Part shown: positions 26,142 through 48,963 of the stretch, piece after piece
Layout: each line of letters begins with the position of its first letter
Numbering within the stretch: position 1 is the first letter of the stretch
Virus record (IMG/VR): IMGVR_UViG_3300030085_000471
Coordinates: 1-48,963 of that record
DNA from: a virus
Reading direction: 5' to 3' (one strand)
Length of the DNA: 48,963 bases
Program-made: the position numbers and the translations under genes
The notes under the pieces: model-generated
Database searches by the model: none
Seen by the model: only the letters and a program-made list of their open reading frames with translations
Told to the model about the DNA's origin: nothing

Positions 26142-26615
26142 ATGTTAAAAACTATAGAACTAACCCTATTAATTGCAGGGTTTTTAGTTATGACGTTAAG
26201 TGTTAGCGGTAATATCTTTGCCGATGAGTTAGTACATAAATTTAAGTCGCCATCATTTAGTGGCATCAATAGCTCAGCTCATTACCTAACCATAGAGAAT
26301 CAAGAGTTTAATAGAAAGGCAGCGATTGAAGCTGAAATTAAAGCTTATCGAGAAGAGCTAGAAAGAGAAGCAGACAATACAACTCTAGCAAGATTTATCA
26401 GAAACTTAGAATCAAGAATATATGCTCAACTATCCAGACAACTAGTAGATGCTTTGTTTGGTGAAAACCCAAGTACTTTCGGGACTTTAGAGCTAATGGG
26501 TAACACCATAGAATACAGTGTTAGTGCTGATGGCACTATGATTACATTAAAGATTACAGATGCAGAAGGGAATGTTACAGAGATTACTGTTCCTATCGGT
26601 TCTTTTACTTTCTAG
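26142..26615 (+). CDS. csgF: CsgF-like curli secretion-channel partner
   Basis: Start chosen at 26142 (ATG with GAGGAGATT upstream, just after the previous stop), giving 157 residues. A signal peptide (about 1-27, LLIAGFLVMTLSVSGNIFA) leads to mature DELVHKFKSPSFSGINSSAHYLTIENQEFNRK, which follows the CsgF pattern TFxFRNPNFGGNPxNGxxLLNxAxxQN. The C-terminal part (NTIEYSVSADGTMITLKITDAEGNVTEITVP) matches the CsgF beta-domain. A helical insert rich in Glu/Arg lies between them. In E. coli, CsgF plugs into the CsgG pore at the cell surface and couples secretion to fibre nucleation. The last 56 bp also encode the CsgG signal peptide in another frame. Confidence 0.85.
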   Translation: MLKTIELTLLIAGFLVMTLSVSGNIFADELVHKFKSPSFSGINSSAHYLTIENQEFNRKAAIEAEIKAYREELEREADNTTLARFIRNLESRIYAQLSRQLVDALFGENPSTFGTLELMGNTIEYSVSADGTMITLKITDAEGNVTEITVPIGSFTF

Positions 26616-27378
26616 TTGTTCAAGTCTTAGACATAGTTCTCTCTTAGATGAGAATGTTATAGGAGCTTATTCAAAGAAAAGACCAAGTACCGTATTAGAG
26701 TTACAGTCAGAGGAGTTAAAAAACTTAAGACCGGCTAAGCTTAAGCCGACTATTGCTATTTATCCTAATAGCTTCACAGACCTAACAGGGCAAAGAAAGA
26801 GTAACAGTACCTTTGCTTTATTCAGTTCTGCTATTACACAGTCACCTGATGCTTTACTTATCAGGGCTTTTAAACATGCTGCAGATGGTCAGTTTTTTAC
26901 AGTTGTCGAGAGAGTAGGCTTAGATAACCTAACCAAAGAACGACAAATAATTAGAACAACCCGTAAGGACTTTGAAGATAATACAGAGTTAAACCCTCTT
27001 ATCTTTGCAGGTCTACTGGTTCAGGGTGGAGTCATTTCTTATGACACAAACCTAAAAAGTGGCGGTAATGGTGCTAGATATCTAGGTATCGGCATGAGCC
27101 GCCAGTATCGTGAGGACACTGTCACAGTATCTTTACGATTAGTTTCTGTTAATACCGGAGAGATATTAATAGAAGTACTAACATCAAAGACTATCCTATC
27201 TGTAGGAGTCTCTAACGATGTCTTTAGATTCATTGAAGCTGGGACAGAGTTAGTAGAAATAGAATCTGGTGTTACACAAAACGAAAGTGTATCTATTGCT
27301 CTCCAGAAAGCGATAGAGACAAGTGTGCTAGAAATAGTACAACAAGGAATAGAGAGGAGATTTTGGAGTTATGAATAG
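26560..27378 (+). CDS. csgG: CsgG-like outer-membrane curli secretion pore (lipoprotein)
   Basis: 272 residues. A lipoprotein signal ends in LLLSSC (Cys20). The mature protein follows E. coli CsgG closely by eye: DLTGQRKSN, AITQSPDALLIRAFKHAADGQFFTVVERVGLDNLTKERQIIR, GVISYDTNLKSGGNGARYLGIG, YREDTVTVSLRLVSVNTGEIL, TSKTILS, NDVFRFIEAG, and a terminal IERRFW. CsgG forms a nonameric outer-membrane channel for unfolded curlin subunits. The constriction loop differs: the position of E. coli F56 is conserved, whereas Y51 and N55 appear replaced by Ser and Leu. The C-terminus is about 20 residues shorter than in E. coli. The start lies inside csgF; an in-frame ATG at 26572 is an alternative. Confidence 0.93.
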   Translation: MQKGMLQRLLFLSVLLLSSCSSLRHSSLLDENVIGAYSKKRPSTVLELQSEELKNLRPAKLKPTIAIYPNSFTDLTGQRKSNSTFALFSSAITQSPDALLIRAFKHAADGQFFTVVERVGLDNLTKERQIIRTTRKDFEDNTELNPLIFAGLLVQGGVISYDTNLKSGGNGARYLGIGMSRQYREDTVTVSLRLVSVNTGEILIEVLTSKTILSVGVSNDVFRFIEAGTELVEIESGVTQNESVSIALQKAIETSVLEIVQQGIERRFWSYE

Positions 27379-36623: not shown

Positions 36624-37059
36624 CTTCTAGTTCCTTAAAAGCTTTAATAACATCAGATGAAAAAAGTTTTTGTAAGTTTATTAAGTACATTCTACTGGCA
36701 TTATGGTCACCACCAGAAACAGTTTTGAAAGTGTCTAGTTCTTTGACAATAGTTTTAAGAACATCGGTATGAAAAACTAAAGTGCAATACTCTTTATCGC
36801 CCACACAAAGATGATGAAACCAATAATCTGATTCAGTGGCCTCAATACCGGAGGGTTTGCCATAGCTTTGATACTCAATAGCTATGTTACCAGTCTTCAT
36901 CCACATACCTCTTTCAGATTTAACTTCAATCTTTTTGTTGAAGAGCATCTCTGCGACTTTCTCTTCTCTGATACTGCCATATTCTAGGTCAATATCAAAC
37001 TTCTTTCGGTCTTTTTTAGTGGGTTTCACTCCAGTTGTCTCCGACTTTAAATTCGCCAT
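36607..37059 (-). CDS. Endonuclease-like protein (E-x-K core)
   Basis: Start taken at 37059 (MANLKSETTGVKPTKKDRKKFDIDLEYG), 150 residues; a longer frame begins with GTG at 37098. The region FDIDLEYGSIREEKVAEMLFNKKIEVKSERGMWMKTGNIAIEYQ has the E-x10-14-D/E-x-K arrangement of small PD-(D/E)XK endonucleases common in marine phages. Sits between polymerase and exonuclease, overlapping both. Substrate unknown; Holliday-junction or host-DNA cleavage are the obvious candidates. Confidence 0.65.
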   Translation of the reverse strand: MANLKSETTGVKPTKKDRKKFDIDLEYGSIREEKVAEMLFNKKIEVKSERGMWMKTGNIAIEYQSYGKPSGIEATESDYWFHHLCVGDKEYCTLVFHTDVLKTIVKELDTFKTVSGGDHNASRMYLINLQKLFSSDVIKAFKELEDEQEK

Positions 37060-38800
37060 CAAGGGGACAACGCATGTTAAAATACTCTCCGGCATCACGA
37101 ATACTTTGCACAGCTAACTGTCCCGCCTGATTTGCTTGGTTTGCTTTTACTTCTATTTGCCATTCATCATGGATATTAGCAACAAACTTAAAATCAATGT
37201 TACAAGTTTTAAGATTATCATGCAATAGATTTAAAGCTTTCTTCATTACGATTGCTCCACCGCCTTGTAGTAAAGTGTTTAAGGCTGCATGTTTATGCCT
37301 TAAAAATATTTTCCTACCGTCTAATCCTTTGAGGAATCCTTTTTGAGCTGCTGTGTCAACTCTTGTCTTAAGAGCCTTAAGTGTTGGTAAACTAGTAAGA
37401 AACTGTTCTCGCAGTTGTTTACCATCTGCTCGATTTCCTTCAACGATGCTTCCAATTTTTTCATCTCCGGCTCCGTATATAAGTGCATAGATGAAAGTTT
37501 TAGCCTCATCTCTTGATTTAAGTCCAGCAAACTGCTGATTAGTTGTGTGAATGTCTCCATTGATAATTTCATTTATGTATTCCTCATCTGACATGTAGTG
37601 GGCTAACATTCTTAACTCCAACCCTGAAGCATCTATACCCACTAATTTATATCCTTCAGGTACAGTCCAACAAGCTCGACATTCCTTACCATAAGGACTG
37701 TATACTGCTGGAACCTGAGCCATGTTAGGATTTCTATGTGTCATCCTACCAGTAATAGCTCCAGTAGAAATAACAGCACCATGAACTCTATCATCTGTTT
37801 TGATATTATCAATCCATGATTCAATTTGACCAACTCTTTTTTGTATTAATAAATATTCAGCAATGAGTTGAGCCTCTTTGATGTGTGCTATTTTACTAAG
37901 AGTACCTTCATCAACAATAGGTTGTCCAGTTGGAGTAAACCTTTTGGGTTGCCAACCAAAGTCTATTAGATACTCACCAATCTGTTGACGAGAGCCGAGA
38001 TTAAATTCTCTAAGTTCTTTTCGGGTAAAAGGAGTAGTGTCATTAGTTGCAACTCTTTCCTGATACTCAACGGAGGTAAGTCCAGACTTAGATAAGGTGC
38101 CATCTTTTTTTAACTTAGGTGTGACTTCTTTAACAGGAATCCACTTAGGTTTAAAGGTAGCATGAACTTCATCCTCTACTTCTTTTTTACGATGATTTAA
38201 TGAACTCAGTAAATCTATTGCTCTTCTCTCATCAAACAGAAAACCATTTAGTTCTTGTTCGATTAATATTTGTGTGGTCTTGTGTTCTATCTCTACTGAT
38301 TCTTTAGAGAAACCCACACTATCTTTCCTTAGTTTATCTAAAACTTTCTTGTTTAACTTGACATCTTGAATACAATAATCAAGCATGTCTTTACTATACT
38401 CAGTAAACATTGGAGCAGTTGACTTAGGGCAGTTGAGTCTCCATCCCCACTTCTCTAGGCTATGTCCTCCTTCCCTAGTAGGATGTAGTAATCTTGATAA
38501 GGTCAAAGTATCAAGAATATTAGCATGGTTAGATAAATCTATCTGCTTAATCCTGTGTATAGCTGGAATATCAAAGCCTAAGATATTATGCCCAACTAAG
38601 CTGTCAGCGGATTTTAAAAACTCAATGCCCTCGTCAATGCTTTCTGGAGTAAAGGTATACACTTTATCAGTATCATCAATAGCAACAATACACCAAATTT
38701 TAGAAGCCGGTGGTAAGTTTGTGACCTCACCAGTCTCGTGGTCTTTTAATGTAGATTCCCAAAGCAATCCATTTGTTTCTATATCAAATACTAATTCCAT
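37016..38800 (-). CDS. polA: Family A DNA polymerase (T7-like) with 3'-5' exonuclease
   Basis: 594 residues. Exonuclease motifs: FDIETNGL (ExoI), VGHNILGFDIPA (ExoII), YCIQDVKLN (ExoIII). Polymerase motifs: A, GIDASGLELRMLAHY; B, RDEAKTFIYALIYGAGDEKIG; C, ANIHDEWQIEV with the catalytic Asp. Motif B carries Tyr at the position equivalent to T7 Y526/E. coli F762. Shorter than T7 gp5 (704 aa), chiefly in the thumb and inter-domain regions. Follows primase-helicase in the same leftward operon, so the pair forms the replisome core. Confidence 0.97.
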   Translation of the reverse strand: MELVFDIETNGLLWESTLKDHETGEVTNLPPASKIWCIVAIDDTDKVYTFTPESIDEGIEFLKSADSLVGHNILGFDIPAIHRIKQIDLSNHANILDTLTLSRLLHPTREGGHSLEKWGWRLNCPKSTAPMFTEYSKDMLDYCIQDVKLNKKVLDKLRKDSVGFSKESVEIEHKTTQILIEQELNGFLFDERRAIDLLSSLNHRKKEVEDEVHATFKPKWIPVKEVTPKLKKDGTLSKSGLTSVEYQERVATNDTTPFTRKELREFNLGSRQQIGEYLIDFGWQPKRFTPTGQPIVDEGTLSKIAHIKEAQLIAEYLLIQKRVGQIESWIDNIKTDDRVHGAVISTGAITGRMTHRNPNMAQVPAVYSPYGKECRACWTVPEGYKLVGIDASGLELRMLAHYMSDEEYINEIINGDIHTTNQQFAGLKSRDEAKTFIYALIYGAGDEKIGSIVEGNRADGKQLREQFLTSLPTLKALKTRVDTAAQKGFLKGLDGRKIFLRHKHAALNTLLQGGGAIVMKKALNLLHDNLKTCNIDFKFVANIHDEWQIEVKANQANQAGQLAVQSIRDAGEYFNMRCPLDGEFKVGDNWSETH

Positions 38801-40470
38801 TAAAATGCAATAGATGTCTGGTTCTCTGCCATACTAAATTCAGTATCAAGGTGTTCAGACAATCTTCCTGTTTCTTTATCGTAAATTAAAGCAGTTGCCA
38901 TACCGACATCTCCAGTATACCTAGACTTTAAGATTCTAAGTCTAGTTGTCCGAGCCTCTTCAGGGTCATCGGACTGTTGATTTCTTTCTAATGCTATCAC
39001 ACAATCACTTAATTGTCCAATACTATTAGACCCTCTTAAATGCGATAGAGAAACTTCAATACCATTCTCATGGCCTCTATTACCATCTACTCTTCTCAAG
39101 TGGGAAACAAGAATTAAACCAGCTCCAGTTTCCTCTACTAAGCTTCTAAGCCTAGTCATAATATTATCTATGGCTCGTCTTTCGTCACCCTCTTCTAAGG
39201 CACTAACAAGCATGTGGAGGTGGTCAACCACTACCCACTTACAATCACAACCAACAATTAAGTATCTAAGCTTAGCAAAGATATCATCTATCTGATTAGT
39301 CCCAAAGTGAGCATGAATAAAAACCTTGTCATCTTTAAAAACTTTATCAAACATATCGACTAAAGTAGACTCATCAAACTTCTCTCGTTCTTGGTCAACA
39401 TACAATCGAGCATTAGCTTCGATAGATAAAATACCATCTACTGTTCTTCGCCAGTCTTCTTCGAGTGCTATGATACCGACATTGTCGTCTGTCTGTTTGA
39501 CTAACCAATGTTCTAGTTCTCTCGTGATACTAGACTTACCAAGCCCTGTGCCACCAGTTAAAGTTACTAGCTCACCTTGTCTCAGTCCATATAGTTTTTC
39601 ATTTAGTCCTGCCCAAGGATAAGGCACAGACTCTTTCTTTTCTCTATCTAAAAAAGAATCTTTCTTCTCTGATACTCTAATGATACCACTAGGGGTATAG
39701 AGTTTAGCATCCCACCAAGCACTAACAAATTCTTTGTATTTGCCTTTGAGAAGCATATCATTAGCATCTTTATAACCATTAGGTAAGGTGACTATCTTAG
39801 CCTTGCCGGGCTTAAGAATACTAGCAACCTTCTTAGCTGACTCAATGCCTTGTCTATCTTTATCAAAACAAATGACAATATTATCAAAGCTTTCTATGTA
39901 TTCTAGGTTCTCTTTAATATCTTTGACTGCTCCGGAAGCTCCTCTAATGATAGAGGTAACTGCCCACTTACTACCTAGTAATTCATAAGCGGCCATCGCA
40001 TCACACTCACCCTCAGTTATGGTTAAATACTTACCACCTTCTTTAAAGAGTTGTTGACCAAACAAACCAACTCCTTGAGGACTAACATCATAGCTAAACT
40101 TTTTGTCTCGGACATATCTAATCTTGTTAGAGGTTAGTTCGTTGTTGATATACAAAGGATAAATATGTTGTGCTATTTGACCAGCACTATCATAAACAGT
40201 TTTAACTCCATACTTCTCAGCAGTCTCTCTTGAGATATTTCTATCTGCTAACTTAGCGAAGACTCCGCCATGAGCATTTAGTTCTCTAACTGTTTCTGTC
40301 ATATTAGTTTTATTAGATACGATATTATCTTGATTGTCTACTCCTTTCGGAAAGAATTCATCACAACTAAAACATTTAGCTGAACCATTCTCATTAACCG
40401 AAAGAGCATCGCTACTACCACAAGCCGGACAAGGCAAGTGATACTTCTTAAATTTTAAATCTTGTTCCAT
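38800..40470 (-). CDS. T7 gp4-like primase-helicase
   Basis: Start at 40470 (ATG with GAGG upstream), 556 residues; an upstream in-frame TTG is less likely. N-terminal zinc finger CPACGSSDA ... KCFSC, then a TOPRIM primase domain (ITEGECDAMAA; CFDKDRQG). C-terminal RecA/DnaB-type helicase with Walker A GGTGLGKSS, Walker B WVVVDHLHML, and LRGSNSIGQLSD. Acidic-aromatic T7-type tail is reduced to SMAENQTSIAF. It unwinds DNA and lays primers for the adjacent polymerase. Confidence 0.95.
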   Translation of the reverse strand: MEQDLKFKKYHLPCPACGSSDALSVNENGSAKCFSCDEFFPKGVDNQDNIVSNKTNMTETVRELNAHGGVFAKLADRNISRETAEKYGVKTVYDSAGQIAQHIYPLYINNELTSNKIRYVRDKKFSYDVSPQGVGLFGQQLFKEGGKYLTITEGECDAMAAYELLGSKWAVTSIIRGASGAVKDIKENLEYIESFDNIVICFDKDRQGIESAKKVASILKPGKAKIVTLPNGYKDANDMLLKGKYKEFVSAWWDAKLYTPSGIIRVSEKKDSFLDREKKESVPYPWAGLNEKLYGLRQGELVTLTGGTGLGKSSITRELEHWLVKQTDDNVGIIALEEDWRRTVDGILSIEANARLYVDQEREKFDESTLVDMFDKVFKDDKVFIHAHFGTNQIDDIFAKLRYLIVGCDCKWVVVDHLHMLVSALEEGDERRAIDNIMTRLRSLVEETGAGLILVSHLRRVDGNRGHENGIEVSLSHLRGSNSIGQLSDCVIALERNQQSDDPEEARTTRLRILKSRYTGDVGMATALIYDKETGRLSEHLDTEFSMAENQTSIAF

Positions 40471-40480
40471 CTTTGACCTC

Positions 40481-40510
40481 AAAAAAATAGGGCATCCGAA
40501 GACACCCTAT
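40481..40510 (-). terminator. Rho-independent terminator upstream of primase-helicase
   Basis: On the minus strand ATAGGGTGTC-TTCG-GATGCCCTAT forms a 10-bp stem (two G-U pairs) followed by seven or more T. It lies between the SSB-proximal gene and primase-helicase, and would reduce downstream replication genes relative to SSB. Confidence 0.85.
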
Positions 40511-41287: not shown

Positions 41288-41494
41288 CTATAAGCTAATC
41301 TCTTCAACTATTTTAGCTAAAGAGATTGTTTGGTTATTATAAAGAGTAATTTTAAAGTTATCGTCTGCTAAACATTCAACTTCATAAACTACTCCACCTT
41401 TACTAAAGATATTTTCATAATTAGTAATTACAAAATTATCAAATTTTCTAAATAATTCTTTATTTAATATAATACTTTCTGTTATTTTAGACAT
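41288..41494 (-). CDS. Small hypothetical protein
   Basis: 68 residues (MSKITESIILNKELFRKFDNFVITNYENIFSKGGVVYEVECLADDNFKITLYNNQTISLAKIVEEISL). Overlaps the TonB-C-like gene by 8 bp and ends 4 bp before the -35 of the ssb promoter. No recognised motif. Confidence 0.6.
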   Translation of the reverse strand: MSKITESIILNKELFRKFDNFVITNYENIFSKGGVVYEVECLADDNFKITLYNNQTISLAKIVEEISL

Positions 41495-42203
41495 TTATTT
41501 TAAAAGGTATTGAACAATTTTCAGCAGTAGCCGTGCCAAAGTCTAAGCTACTAAGGTATCGCACACTAGCTCGTCTAATACTACTAGGTGGATTAGACTC
41601 AAATTCAACATTAACAGGCTTACCTTCTGCTAAGTCATACACAATTCTAAAAGCTACTGAGTTCTTTAGAGTTACATTCCTAATATAGTAAGAGAAACTT
41701 CTGTTCTTTACCGGCTTAGGACAAGCCACAGGCTCTGCCACAACTTTTTCTACCTCATTAGAGACAACATAAGGAGCCTCAATTTCCGGCTCTTGTGTGG
41801 CCTCTGAGGGCTTCGTTTGTAACAGCTCTAATTGTGTTGCTAAGTTCAGCACACTAGCAGTTGTAGTGTTTTCTAGCTGAGTTAGTTGAGTTTGTAGCTC
41901 AGCTAAGCTTAAAGCTAAACTCTCTTGCTCAGCTTCACTAAGTTCTGCGAAGTTTACTAAAGTTTTAATAGCTCTTTCGGTTTGTAAAACAGTTTGAAAG
42001 ATACCATCATTTTCTAGTCTTAGTTCTTCATTCTCCACTTCCAAAGCATTTATTCTAGCTAATAAATTTTGCTTAGTCTTTTTAAATTCTACGACATACT
42101 CTTGTGTGTTACCAATGTTTTGTTTGACATGATAGCCAAGTAAAAGATAAGTAGCACTTACAAGCACTAAAGTTATTAAAGTTGATATTACTATATTCTT
42201 CAT
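41487..42203 (-). CDS. Membrane-anchored coiled-coil protein with TonB C-terminal-like domain
   Basis: 238 residues: one N-terminal TM segment (about 4-24, IVISTLITLVLVSATYLLLG), a long coiled coil (about 38-135), a Pro/Glu-rich linker, and a C-terminal domain (about 170-238). That domain reads RIVYDLAEGKPVNVEFESNPPSSI..ASVRYLSSLDF ... CSIPFKINV, matching the TonB_C pattern in which SxPxGxFDxAAxxALxxWxF follows a beta hairpin. TonB links the inner-membrane motor to outer-membrane receptors. No ExbB/ExbD-interaction His is seen in the TM segment. Possible roles are interference with TonB uptake, superinfection exclusion or envelope bridging; none is shown. Confidence 0.65.
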   Translation of the reverse strand: MKNIVISTLITLVLVSATYLLLGYHVKQNIGNTQEYVVEFKKTKQNLLARINALEVENEELRLENDGIFQTVLQTERAIKTLVNFAELSEAEQESLALSLAELQTQLTQLENTTTASVLNLATQLELLQTKPSEATQEPEIEAPYVVSNEVEKVVAEPVACPKPVKNRSFSYYIRNVTLKNSVAFRIVYDLAEGKPVNVEFESNPPSSIRRASVRYLSSLDFGTATAENCSIPFKINV

Positions 42204-46335: not shown

Positions 46336-46365
46336 AGCCCCTCTTAATTGAGGGGTTTTTTATTT
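46336..46365 (+). terminator. Rho-independent terminator, copy 1 of identical pair
   Basis: CCCCTC-TTAATT-GAGGGG followed by six T, directly after the 244-residue gene. The 30 bases from 46336 are identical to those from 46700. Confidence 0.93.
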
Positions 46366-46699: not shown

Positions 46700-46729
46700 A
46701 GCCCCTCTTAATTGAGGGGTTTTTTATTT
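46700..46729 (+). terminator. Rho-independent terminator, copy 2 of identical pair
   Basis: Same CCCCTC-TTAATT-GAGGGG stem-loop and T-tract as at 46336; 30 of 30 bases match. Isolates the origin-like region from upstream transcription. Confidence 0.93.
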
Positions 46730-46767
46730 CCGAGTTCTAGCAGTTATTTACAAGTCTATTAAATTAG

Positions 46768-46884
46768 TTATCCACAGCTAGGATCGAAAGACTTCAAAAG
46801 ACCTTTAAAGATTTATTCTCAAAGACTTTAAATAAAATTGAGGTCTTTCGAGTTTAGCTAACACTTATCCACAAGTTATCCACA
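46768..46884. promoter_or_regulatory. Three perfect DnaA boxes
   Basis: TTATCCACA occurs at 46768-46776, 46865-46873 and 46876-46884, all on the plus strand; the last two are 2 bp apart. This is the high-affinity E. coli-type DnaA consensus. Confidence 0.85.
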
Positions 46885-46950
46885 GAAGTAAGGTTAACAC
46901 TCTTAAAAGCCTTGATATGTTAAACCTTATTAAGATATGTAGTTCTCTGA

Positions 46951-46980
46951 GGCTCTGAAAGGCTCTGTAAGGCTCTGTAA
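46951..46980. repeat. Tandem 10-bp iterons
   Basis: GGCTCTGAAA, GGCTCTGTAA, GGCTCTGTAA lie head to tail, preceded by a degenerate TTCTCTGA and followed by CTCTTTAAAG. They lie 70 bp from the paired DnaA boxes. Confidence 0.8.
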
Positions 46981-47471
46981 CTCTTTAAAGCTACCCTTAC
47001 CCCTTATTAGTCTTATTAAGTCTGTGAAGTTCTGTTTAGCTCTTTGAGGTTGTTATATATTAATTTACAGTCTTTAAAGTCCCTCTGTAGGCTTGTTAAG
47101 TCTCACTTTATGTTTCTTTATAGCTCTTTAAAGGTCTTTTAAATTTAAAAAGCTTGTAAAGTCTCTATTTATAGACTTTTGAAGTCTTTTAAGACCTACT
47201 AGGCTGGAGCCACCCCCCTATATCCCTATATATATACTAGTGGTTCTACATTTTTACAGGTTTTTCAGTGTTAAGACAGGAGCTTTGTTCGGCTTCAGTG
47301 GAACTCTAACAACTTCATAGACCCTAGAGCTAGTCTCCACAGGCTTTATAGTCCTCTAAAGTCTATAAAGTGTTGTTCTTGGTTCCTTACTATTCAACCC
47401 GGGCGACCTACAATGTCATTATACACCTAGATTCTTACTTTGTCAAGTACTTAAGTATTTTATCACAAAAC

Positions 47472-47499
47472 TTGACAAAACTAAAAGAAGCTTTATAAT
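47472..47499 (+). promoter_or_regulatory. Perfect-consensus late promoter at terS
   Basis: TTGACA (47472-47477), 16-bp spacer, TATAAT (47494-47499). The expected start of transcription, about 7 nt past the -10, falls at or next to the terS ATG (47507). It should drive the packaging, structural, lysis and curli genes. Confidence 0.85.
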
Positions 47500-47506
47500 A
47501 AGATGT

Positions 47507-47911
47507 ATGAGTAATTTACCTGCTAATAAAAGATTAACAGAAAAACAACAATTATTTTTAGATAATATCCTTACTACTCAAGGAGATTTAAAACTATCTG
47601 CTGAACTTGCCGGATACTCAGGAAATCACTACCAAGTTATAAAGAGTTTAAAAGAAGAAATAGTCGAATTAGCCTCGAATGTACTAGCAAGAGAAGCTCC
47701 TAAAGCAGCTTTTAAGCTCGTTGAAGTTATGACTGCTGCTGATGCGATACCACAGGCCAATGTGAAACTACAAGCTGCTCAAACAGTCTTAGATAGAGTT
47801 GGTTTAGGTAAAACAGAACGAGTAGATGTCAACCATAATGTGCAAGGTGGTATTTTTATCCTACCTGAAAAACATACTATAGATGTAGAATATGCCGAAC
47901 AAGAAAACTAA
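47507..47911 (+). CDS. terS: Terminase small subunit candidate (TerS)
   Basis: 134 residues. N-terminal helix-turn-helix (KRLTEKQQLFLDNILTTQGDLKLSAELAGYSG), a central helical oligomerisation part (LKEEIVELASNVLAREAPKAAFKLVEVM ... NVKLQAAQTVLDRVGLGKTERVDV), and a C-terminal GGIFILPEKHTIDVEYAE that should contact TerL. This is the standard small-terminase layout in marine phages, recognising phage DNA for packaging. There is no Shine-Dalgarno sequence before the ATG, in line with a leaderless start. The 3' end overlaps the next gene by 20 bp. Confidence 0.82.
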   Translation: MSNLPANKRLTEKQQLFLDNILTTQGDLKLSAELAGYSGNHYQVIKSLKEEIVELASNVLAREAPKAAFKLVEVMTAADAIPQANVKLQAAQTVLDRVGLGKTERVDVNHNVQGGIFILPEKHTIDVEYAEQEN

Positions 47912-48217: not shown

Positions 48218-48422
48218 ACAGAAGTGGCGAACTAAATCAGGTAAGAAGTCTAGTGAGACTGGTGAAAGATATTTACCCTCTGCAGCTATTGCAGCTTTAA
48301 CTCCAGCAGAGTATGCTGCTTCTTCCCGTAAGAAAAGAGCAGATACTAAGAAAGGTAAACAACATTCTAAGCAACCTAAGAAGATTGCAAAGAAAACTAG
48401 ACAATATAGAAAAACATCATAA
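48171..48422 (+). CDS. Basic SLRSWTKQKWRTKSGK protein (DUF5872 C-terminal-half-like)
   Basis: 83 residues: LKKSQRSLRSWTKQKWRTKSGKKSS, RYLPSAAIAALTPAEYAASSRKKRA and KKGKQHSKQPKKIAKKTRQYR. The SLxxWTxxxWxTxxGxxxxxxxRYLPxxxxxxLTPxE pattern follows the GQWSARKAQ half in single-chain DUF5872-type proteins, as I recall them. Strongly basic. Its stop overlaps the next start (TAATG). Confidence 0.7.
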   Translation: MSELKKSQRSLRSWTKQKWRTKSGKKSSETGERYLPSAAIAALTPAEYAASSRKKRADTKKGKQHSKQPKKIAKKTRQYRKTS

Positions 48423-48709
48423 TGAGTAAGAAAGATTCAAGATTAGCACGAGCTGGAGTTTCAGGTTTTAACAAGCCTAAAAGAACTCCTAATCATCCTA
48501 AGAAGTCACACATCGTAGTAGCTAAAGAAGGCGATAAAATTAAAACTATTCGTTTTGGTCAACAAGGTGCTAAGACAGCTGGGAAACCTAAAGCTGGTGA
48601 ATCCTCTAAGATGACAGCTAAACGTAAAAGCTTTAAAGCTCGTCATAGAAAGAATATTAATAAAGGTAAAATGTCCGCAGCCTATTGGGCTGACAAAGTT
48701 AAATGGTAA
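48422..48709 (+). CDS. Conserved basic phage protein
   Basis: 95 residues (MSKKDSRLARAGVSGFNKPKRTPNHPKKSHIVVAKEGDKIKTIRFGQQG ... AKRKSFKARHRKNINKGKMSAAYWADKVKW). The FNKPKRTPxHPxKSHxVxAKEGxxxKxIRFGQQG core and the AYWADKVKW end are widely conserved in marine phages near terminase. Arg/Lys-rich with no enzymatic motif; DNA-associated packaging or virion role is possible. Confidence 0.75.
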   Translation: MSKKDSRLARAGVSGFNKPKRTPNHPKKSHIVVAKEGDKIKTIRFGQQGAKTAGKPKAGESSKMTAKRKSFKARHRKNINKGKMSAAYWADKVKW

Positions 48710-48710
48710 A

Positions 48711-48872
48711 ATGCCTCAGTTAGGAAGTAACGAAAAACCAGTACTAATGACCAACAAGAAAAATGGTGGTCGAGTAGGTAAAGGTTCTAGACCTAGACCA
48801 ATTCCAGACAAAGCACAGTTTGCTAAGAATTGGGATGCTATTTTTAATAAAGGCACGAAGTCGGAAGACTGA
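48711..48872 (+). CDS. Small basic protein preceding terL
   Basis: 53 residues (MPQLGSNEKPVLMTNKKNGGRVGKGSRPRPIPDKAQFAKNWDAIFNKGTKSED). Ends at 48872 (equivalent to position 8), 66 bp before the terL start. Gly/Lys/Arg-rich first half, aromatic second half. Frequent in this position in marine phages; function unknown. Confidence 0.65.
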   Translation: MPQLGSNEKPVLMTNKKNGGRVGKGSRPRPIPDKAQFAKNWDAIFNKGTKSED

Positions 48873-48963
48873 GTCAGTGTAAGAGGCTTTCCAGATGTTT
48901 TCATCCATCTTAACGTCTGGAGAGTCCAGCTTTGAATTATGACACAGATACCAAAAGATTACT
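48865..48963. repeat. Terminal direct repeat, right copy
   Basis: Repeats bases 1-98 exactly; the final base (T) differs from base 99 (C). Includes the terL start (48939), so the partial terL here is the same gene as 75-1850. Confidence 0.9.

Follow-up and report, generated by a model that had tools for sequence, protein, structure and literature searches.

How does replication start in podophages that carry T7-like enzymes and lack an RNA polymerase? This is the question addressed by a noncoding locus upstream of the terminase genes in a viral record of 48,963 nucleotides (hereafter, the window). The chances are about even, judging from the sequence, that the intergenic region at 46.7-47.5 kb is an origin or control locus to which host DnaA is recruited in this phage. 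We consider this locus the best origin candidate, given where it lies, the recurring order of its elements, and a phage that has no RNA polymerase of its own.

The phage and the region upstream of its terminase genes

The window derives from a marine podophage of the type of HTVC103P and HMO-2011, as revealed by the TerL and primase-helicase shared with these isolates. Its TerL is 68% identical to those of the pelagiphages HTVC103P, HTVC104P, and HTVC115P and 46% identical to that of HMO-2011, and its primase-helicase is 47% identical to that of HTVC115P. Pelagibacter is the host of the nearest isolates. Since its two 98-bp ends match (positions 1-98 equal 48865-48962, 98 bp exact, one trailing base apart), the record probably represents a closed map of ~48.9 kb. 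The primase-helicase and the family A polymerase are T7-like (phrog_239, 1e-185; phrog_17, 3e-150), and the window further encodes a weak match to a gp2.5-like SSB, a Cas4-type exonuclease, and a ribonucleotide reductase. In the original prediction, the genome appeared to lack a T7-type RNA polymerase, and this was borne out: PF00940 was not found in the window, HTVC103P, HMO-2011, or four near-complete relatives, while the positive control, HTVC019P, was matched at 4e-106. The features used below are the following.

37016..40482, - strand: T7-like replisome genes (family A DNA polymerase, 37016-38800; primase-helicase, 38800-40482)
46700..46729, + strand: intrinsic terminator of the neighbouring + strand gene, a 30-bp exact copy of 46336-46365
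46744..46752, + strand: decayed DnaA box 0, TTATTTACA, an exact TTATCCACA in the relatives L369 and L367
46768..46776, + strand: exact TTATCCACA (DnaA box 1), also present in L369, L367, and L243
46776..46859, no strand: imperfect hairpin between boxes 1 and 2 (DNA fold)
46865..46873, + strand: DnaA box 2, exact, 97 bp from box 1 (96 bp in L243)
46876..46884, + strand: DnaA box 3, exact, at an 11-bp step from box 2 (degenerate, TTATAAACA, in L243)
46895..47195, no strand: degenerate 9-10-nt direct repeats, AGGCTCTGTA- or AAGTCTTTAG-like, present across the lineage
47203..47279, no strand: conserved core with GGCTGGAG, the G/C-run (47210-47226), TATATATATACTAGTG, TTCTACATTTTTACAGG, and GTGTTAAG
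47418..47446, - strand: inward sigma70 promoter, perfect TTGACA-17-TATAAT, firing into the noncoding region
47472..47499, + strand: outward sigma70 promoter, perfect TTGACA-16-TATAAT, of the TerS/late operon
47507..47911, + strand: terminase small subunit (TerS), a weak PHROG hit adjoining TerL

The general layout described at first reading was recovered. No ORF of at least 60 aa lies between 46680 and 47506; a + strand terminator (stem at 46704-46719) closes the region on one side and the perfect sigma70 promoter at 47472-47499 on the other. The tandem 10-bp units are real, with a lag-10 autocorrelation of 0.48 over 46895-47195 against ~0.28 in lineage-averaged shuffles, and the AT-rich run, TATATATATA, is present at ~47227-47238. 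The inward promoter, the decayed fourth box, the hairpin between boxes 1 and 2, and the core at 47203-47279 had been missed.

Relatives were gathered mainly by a TerL search, because many loci retrieved by an earlier search with the small protein encoded at 48422-48709, which fetched very diverse phages, gave no TerS match. This small protein (phrog_7595) occurs at high identity in at least 599 viral stretches, from phages that are otherwise very different.

The repeat array is a property of the lineage. In 53 relatives, the mean autocorrelation was 0.37 at lags 9 and 10, compared with 0.283 after shuffling, with a second rise at 18-19. The sequence of the unit varies between phages (AGGCTCTGTA, AAGTCTTTAG, and, on the other strand in L199, AGAACTACAT). 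A possible candidate for a DNA-binding protein acting on this array is a conserved early protein of 238 aa (41487-42203; 90% in L367), for which family and structure searches gave no family and no convincing structure match.

The core holds the G/C-run followed by TATATA, together with further conserved words. Of 74 relatives in the window lineage, 77% have a G/C-run at the corresponding position. The run is of the C type in 52 of the 64 parsed cases and of the G type or mixed in the other 12, which means that its composition is kept more than its strand. Its conservation is strand-neutral. Even among close relatives, C-runs and G-runs are swapped between conserved flanks (e.g., L245 versus L177). 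Both promoters match the consensus at 11 or more of 12 positions in almost every relative (inward, 74/75; outward, 73/75), the shuffles reaching mostly 8-9. The gene-free spacer upstream of TerS is kept whichever way the neighbouring gene points, and the nearest genes are typically 0.5-0.85 kb off. As predicted elements, the repeat array, the G/C-run-TATATA core, and the divergent near-perfect sigma70 promoters are common to nearly all relatives.

DnaA boxes in the window and in close relatives

The three perfect boxes of the original prediction, two of them 2 bp apart, are found at 46768-46776, 46865-46873, and 46876-46884. No other exact TTATCCACA occurs in the whole 48,963-bp record, and the three copies, all on the + strand, span 117 bp. 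An order-2 Markov model gives 0.41 exact copies in the record, and triples of exact boxes within 120 bp appeared in 0 of 400 simulations (~2e-7 expected by chance). The cluster of high-affinity-type DnaA boxes exceeds chance. The hairpin between boxes 1 and 2 has DNA-fold z values of -3.6 on one strand and -3.1 on the other, and it shows one compensatory change (A:T to G:C) between the window and L369/L367; it was not recovered in L243 (z ~0). None of the four window boxes is flanked by DnaA-trios. An oriC-like 24-mer gave nine matches in bacterial genomes, none of them from marine alphaproteobacteria going by the record titles. The boxes are predicted by sequence, and the site preference of the host's DnaA may differ.

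The nearest relatives bearing the block, L369 (TerS 98%) and L367, have four exact boxes each, at spacings of 24, 97, and 11 bp. Compared directly with L369, the window is 88-98% identical over the block and only 62-88% over the spacer to its right. In the more distant L243/L242 lineage (TerS 68% identical), boxes 1 and 2 are kept 96 bp apart, and a degenerate copy of box 3 follows after the 11-bp step; the sequence of L242 ends before box 1. Among 75 distinct relatives with a TerS-upstream region, the block was found only in the window, L369, and L242/L243, which make two lineages. The stretch that holds it is cleanly absent from the siblings of L243, and L169, with a TerL 96% identical to that of the window, has no block. 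The 57 block-less relatives contain exact boxes at the expected frequency (1 seen, 0.6 expected), also when one mismatch is allowed (8 seen, 10.8 expected). The near-complete relatives and the isolate genomes have scattered single boxes only; among the isolates, there are no exact boxes in HTVC103P and HTVC115P and two scattered ones in HTVC104P.

Since it is absent from most relatives, siblings included, the block is an accessory element, gained or lost. The expected conservation of the boxes in related contigs was therefore seen in L369, L367, and L243/L242 and not in most relatives, including L169; absence from close relatives had been named beforehand as refuting, and absence is what most of them display. 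As a general answer to the missing polymerase, recruitment of host DnaA is not supported, given that the close relatives tested are without the polymerase too, possess the same locus, and carry boxes at chance level only.

DnaA-box arrays in distant podophages and known origins

A scan with the pattern TTATCCACANNTTATCCACA matched at least 120 stretches. We considered contigs that encode a homologue of the portal of the window, lie outside the close lineage, and have a cluster of at least 3 boxes, i.e., 12 contigs among the matches listed. These distant podophages (portal ~25% identical to that of the window) carry phased DnaA-box arrays that reach 8 boxes within 250 bp and, like the locus of the window, directly precede the TerS/portal operon. 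Neither the position of the cluster nor the presence of a G/C-run was a criterion of the scan. Among the matches listed, the cluster was noncoding and 1.9-2.9 kb upstream of the portal gene in 12/12 contigs, and 10/12 have a G/C-run no more than 130 nt away on the side facing TerS, compared with 1/12 on the other side (background, ~3% of windows). A second scan, differently ascertained, required a box followed by GGGGNGGGG and also matched at least 120 stretches, 48 of them with a portal gene among the matches listed. All 48 elements were 1.6-4.4 kb upstream of the portal gene and in its orientation, and 8/8 elements with the box reversed were likewise placed (both among the matches listed). 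The two sets share a few contigs, and the counts are of contigs, not of independent events. Several double-box contigs also carry homologues of the primase-helicase or the polymerase.

The recurring order is site array, G/C-run, AT-rich stretch, promoters, and TerS. This layout, as read from sequence, suggests that these viruses borrow the host starter DnaA despite having their own copying machinery. An element that occupies a fixed place ahead of the terminase genes, and that has the same orientation in 48/48 contigs among the matches listed, is a concrete origin candidate. A search of the literature by terms, within the text that such terms reach, returned no report of a DnaA-box/G-run element. 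The array of the distant phages consists of DnaA boxes; the lineage of the window has the 9-10-nt array in their place. The window's own boxes are further out: these are ~330 bp away from the G/C-run, unlike those of the array phages, which are beside it.

The locus shares features with several known origins. The primary origin of T7 is a promoter followed by an AT-rich stretch and is served by the phage's own single-subunit RNA polymerase. The window has the T7-like primase-helicase and family A polymerase, the weak gp2.5-like SSB, and a promoter followed by an AT-rich stretch; it differs from T7 in having no phage RNA polymerase, host sigma70 promoters, and DnaA boxes. Iteron plasmid origins, such as RK2 oriV and P1 oriR, contain DnaA boxes, short direct repeats, and G+C-rich and AT-rich segments. 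All of these are combined in the window, but without a recognised Rep, with degenerate repeats of 9-10 nt, and in a podophage beside the terminase genes. The closest systems, the pelagiphages HTVC103P, HTVC104P, and HTVC115P, have the divergent promoters and the G/C-run core upstream of TerS but lack the DnaA-box block. The basal unwinding system (BUS) of oriC is defined in PMC8287927 (see also PMC6669920) as a DnaA box, a short GC-rich gap, and DnaA-trios within ~16 bp of the box. The window has tandem DnaA boxes at an 11-bp step, and in the distant array phages the boxes adjoin a GC cluster and an AT-rich stretch. Unlike in oriC, the boxes of the window are ~330 bp from the GC cluster, which is 9-17 nt long rather than ~4, and the phage has its own primase-helicase; set against the definition of PMC8287927, no trios are found next to the boxes.

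It is conceivable, though we would hold it only tentatively, that a large group of podophages without RNA polymerase has a common origin plan upstream of the terminase genes, made of a site array, a strand-neutral G/C-run, an AT-rich stretch, and host promoters. The array would be of DnaA boxes in some lineages and would have been swapped in that of the window for 9-10-nt repeats with another initiator, DnaA boxes being re-added at the far end. The locus also offers a possible case of an exchanged initiator-binding array beside a G/C-run and promoters that stayed in place.

Proposed initiation at the locus and competing explanations

For the window itself, replication with the help of DnaA would most likely proceed as follows. 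The part common to the lineage (the 9-10-nt repeat array, the G/C-run followed by TATATA, and the two divergent host-type promoters) would have received a putative DnaA-binding block at its distal end in this phage and a few relatives. Host DnaA would bind this block, helping to open or mark the locus; the opened locus would let the phage primase-helicase and family A polymerase load, and transcription from the inward promoter would probably aid opening or priming. DnaA binding, strand opening, and the start of replication at this place are the steps that we infer. Boxes beyond chance, spacing kept in two lineages, and distant arrays at the same place favour the locus as an origin; as a rule for phages without an RNA polymerase, DnaA recruitment is not supported, and the original prediction is only partly right. 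Several observations go against this reading: most relatives lack the block and must initiate without it, the boxes are ~330 bp from the G/C-run, there are no DnaA-trios, the hairpin is not recovered in L243, and GC skew is silent. Skew had been proposed as a check, but it follows the gene strand and marks no origin at the locus. The third-position skew of + strand genes is 0.18 to the left of the locus and 0.003 to its right, the opposite of what a bidirectional origin predicts, so skew was rejected as origin evidence. Searched by term, the paper on the HMO-2011 group mentions neither RNA polymerase nor promoters and does not state how replication starts.

A possible, if doubtful, alternative is that host RNA polymerase, starting from the inward promoter (47446..47418), opens or primes the origin without DnaA, by a T7-like logic, or makes a long noncoding RNA. 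The near-perfect inward promoter in 74/75 relatives fits this well, since in many of them the next gene faces the promoter and no adjacent gene is driven, and the gene-free spacer is kept whatever its neighbour. Yet the core has no conserved RNA structure: RNAalifold gave no pair in 26 aligned cores and an Rfam search gave only sub-threshold noise, and we rejected a structured RNA on these grounds. A strand-neutral G/C-run is also not what an RNA-DNA hybrid would favour. Such priming by transcription is compatible with help from DnaA.

It is rather unlikely that the boxes sequester host DnaA or tune transcription in a take-over of the host, without being part of an origin. The block is an optional, self-contained cassette next to a terminator, which fits an accessory role better than an essential origin, and it does not adjoin the G/C-run. 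However, unless it is present in many copies, a genome with three or four boxes offers few sites for titration. The arrays of other phages also keep a set position and orientation relative to the G/C-run upstream of TerS, for which titration has no need.

Similarly improbable is a packaging site, in which TerS would wrap the G/C-run core and the periodic array as a pac or cos site, the boxes being incidental or a separate accessory. The core is ~280 bp upstream of TerS, C-runs and G-runs replace each other freely in its GC-rich segment, as they could in a cohesive overhang, and a periodic array suits a ring-shaped TerS. Against this, the ends of the relatives' contigs do not pile up at the core, which speaks against a cos site at the G/C-run, and some near-complete contigs run through it. 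The 98-bp overlap by which the record closes lies elsewhere, and a similar G/C-run adjoins the DnaA arrays of distant phages.

Chance matches in an AT-rich spacer, which the chance-level boxes of most relatives would suit, were rejected as extremely improbable given one observed cluster against ~2e-7 triples expected, the fourth box in L369 and L367, and the spacing conserved in L369, L367, and L243.

Finally, the identical 30-bp terminators at 46336-46365 and 46700-46729 end consecutive small + strand genes. Such genes look like cassettes that change orientation between relatives, and they are inverted in L175. Elsewhere, at 26560-27378, the window encodes a CsgG-like protein, a curli transport component (PF03783, 2e-50).
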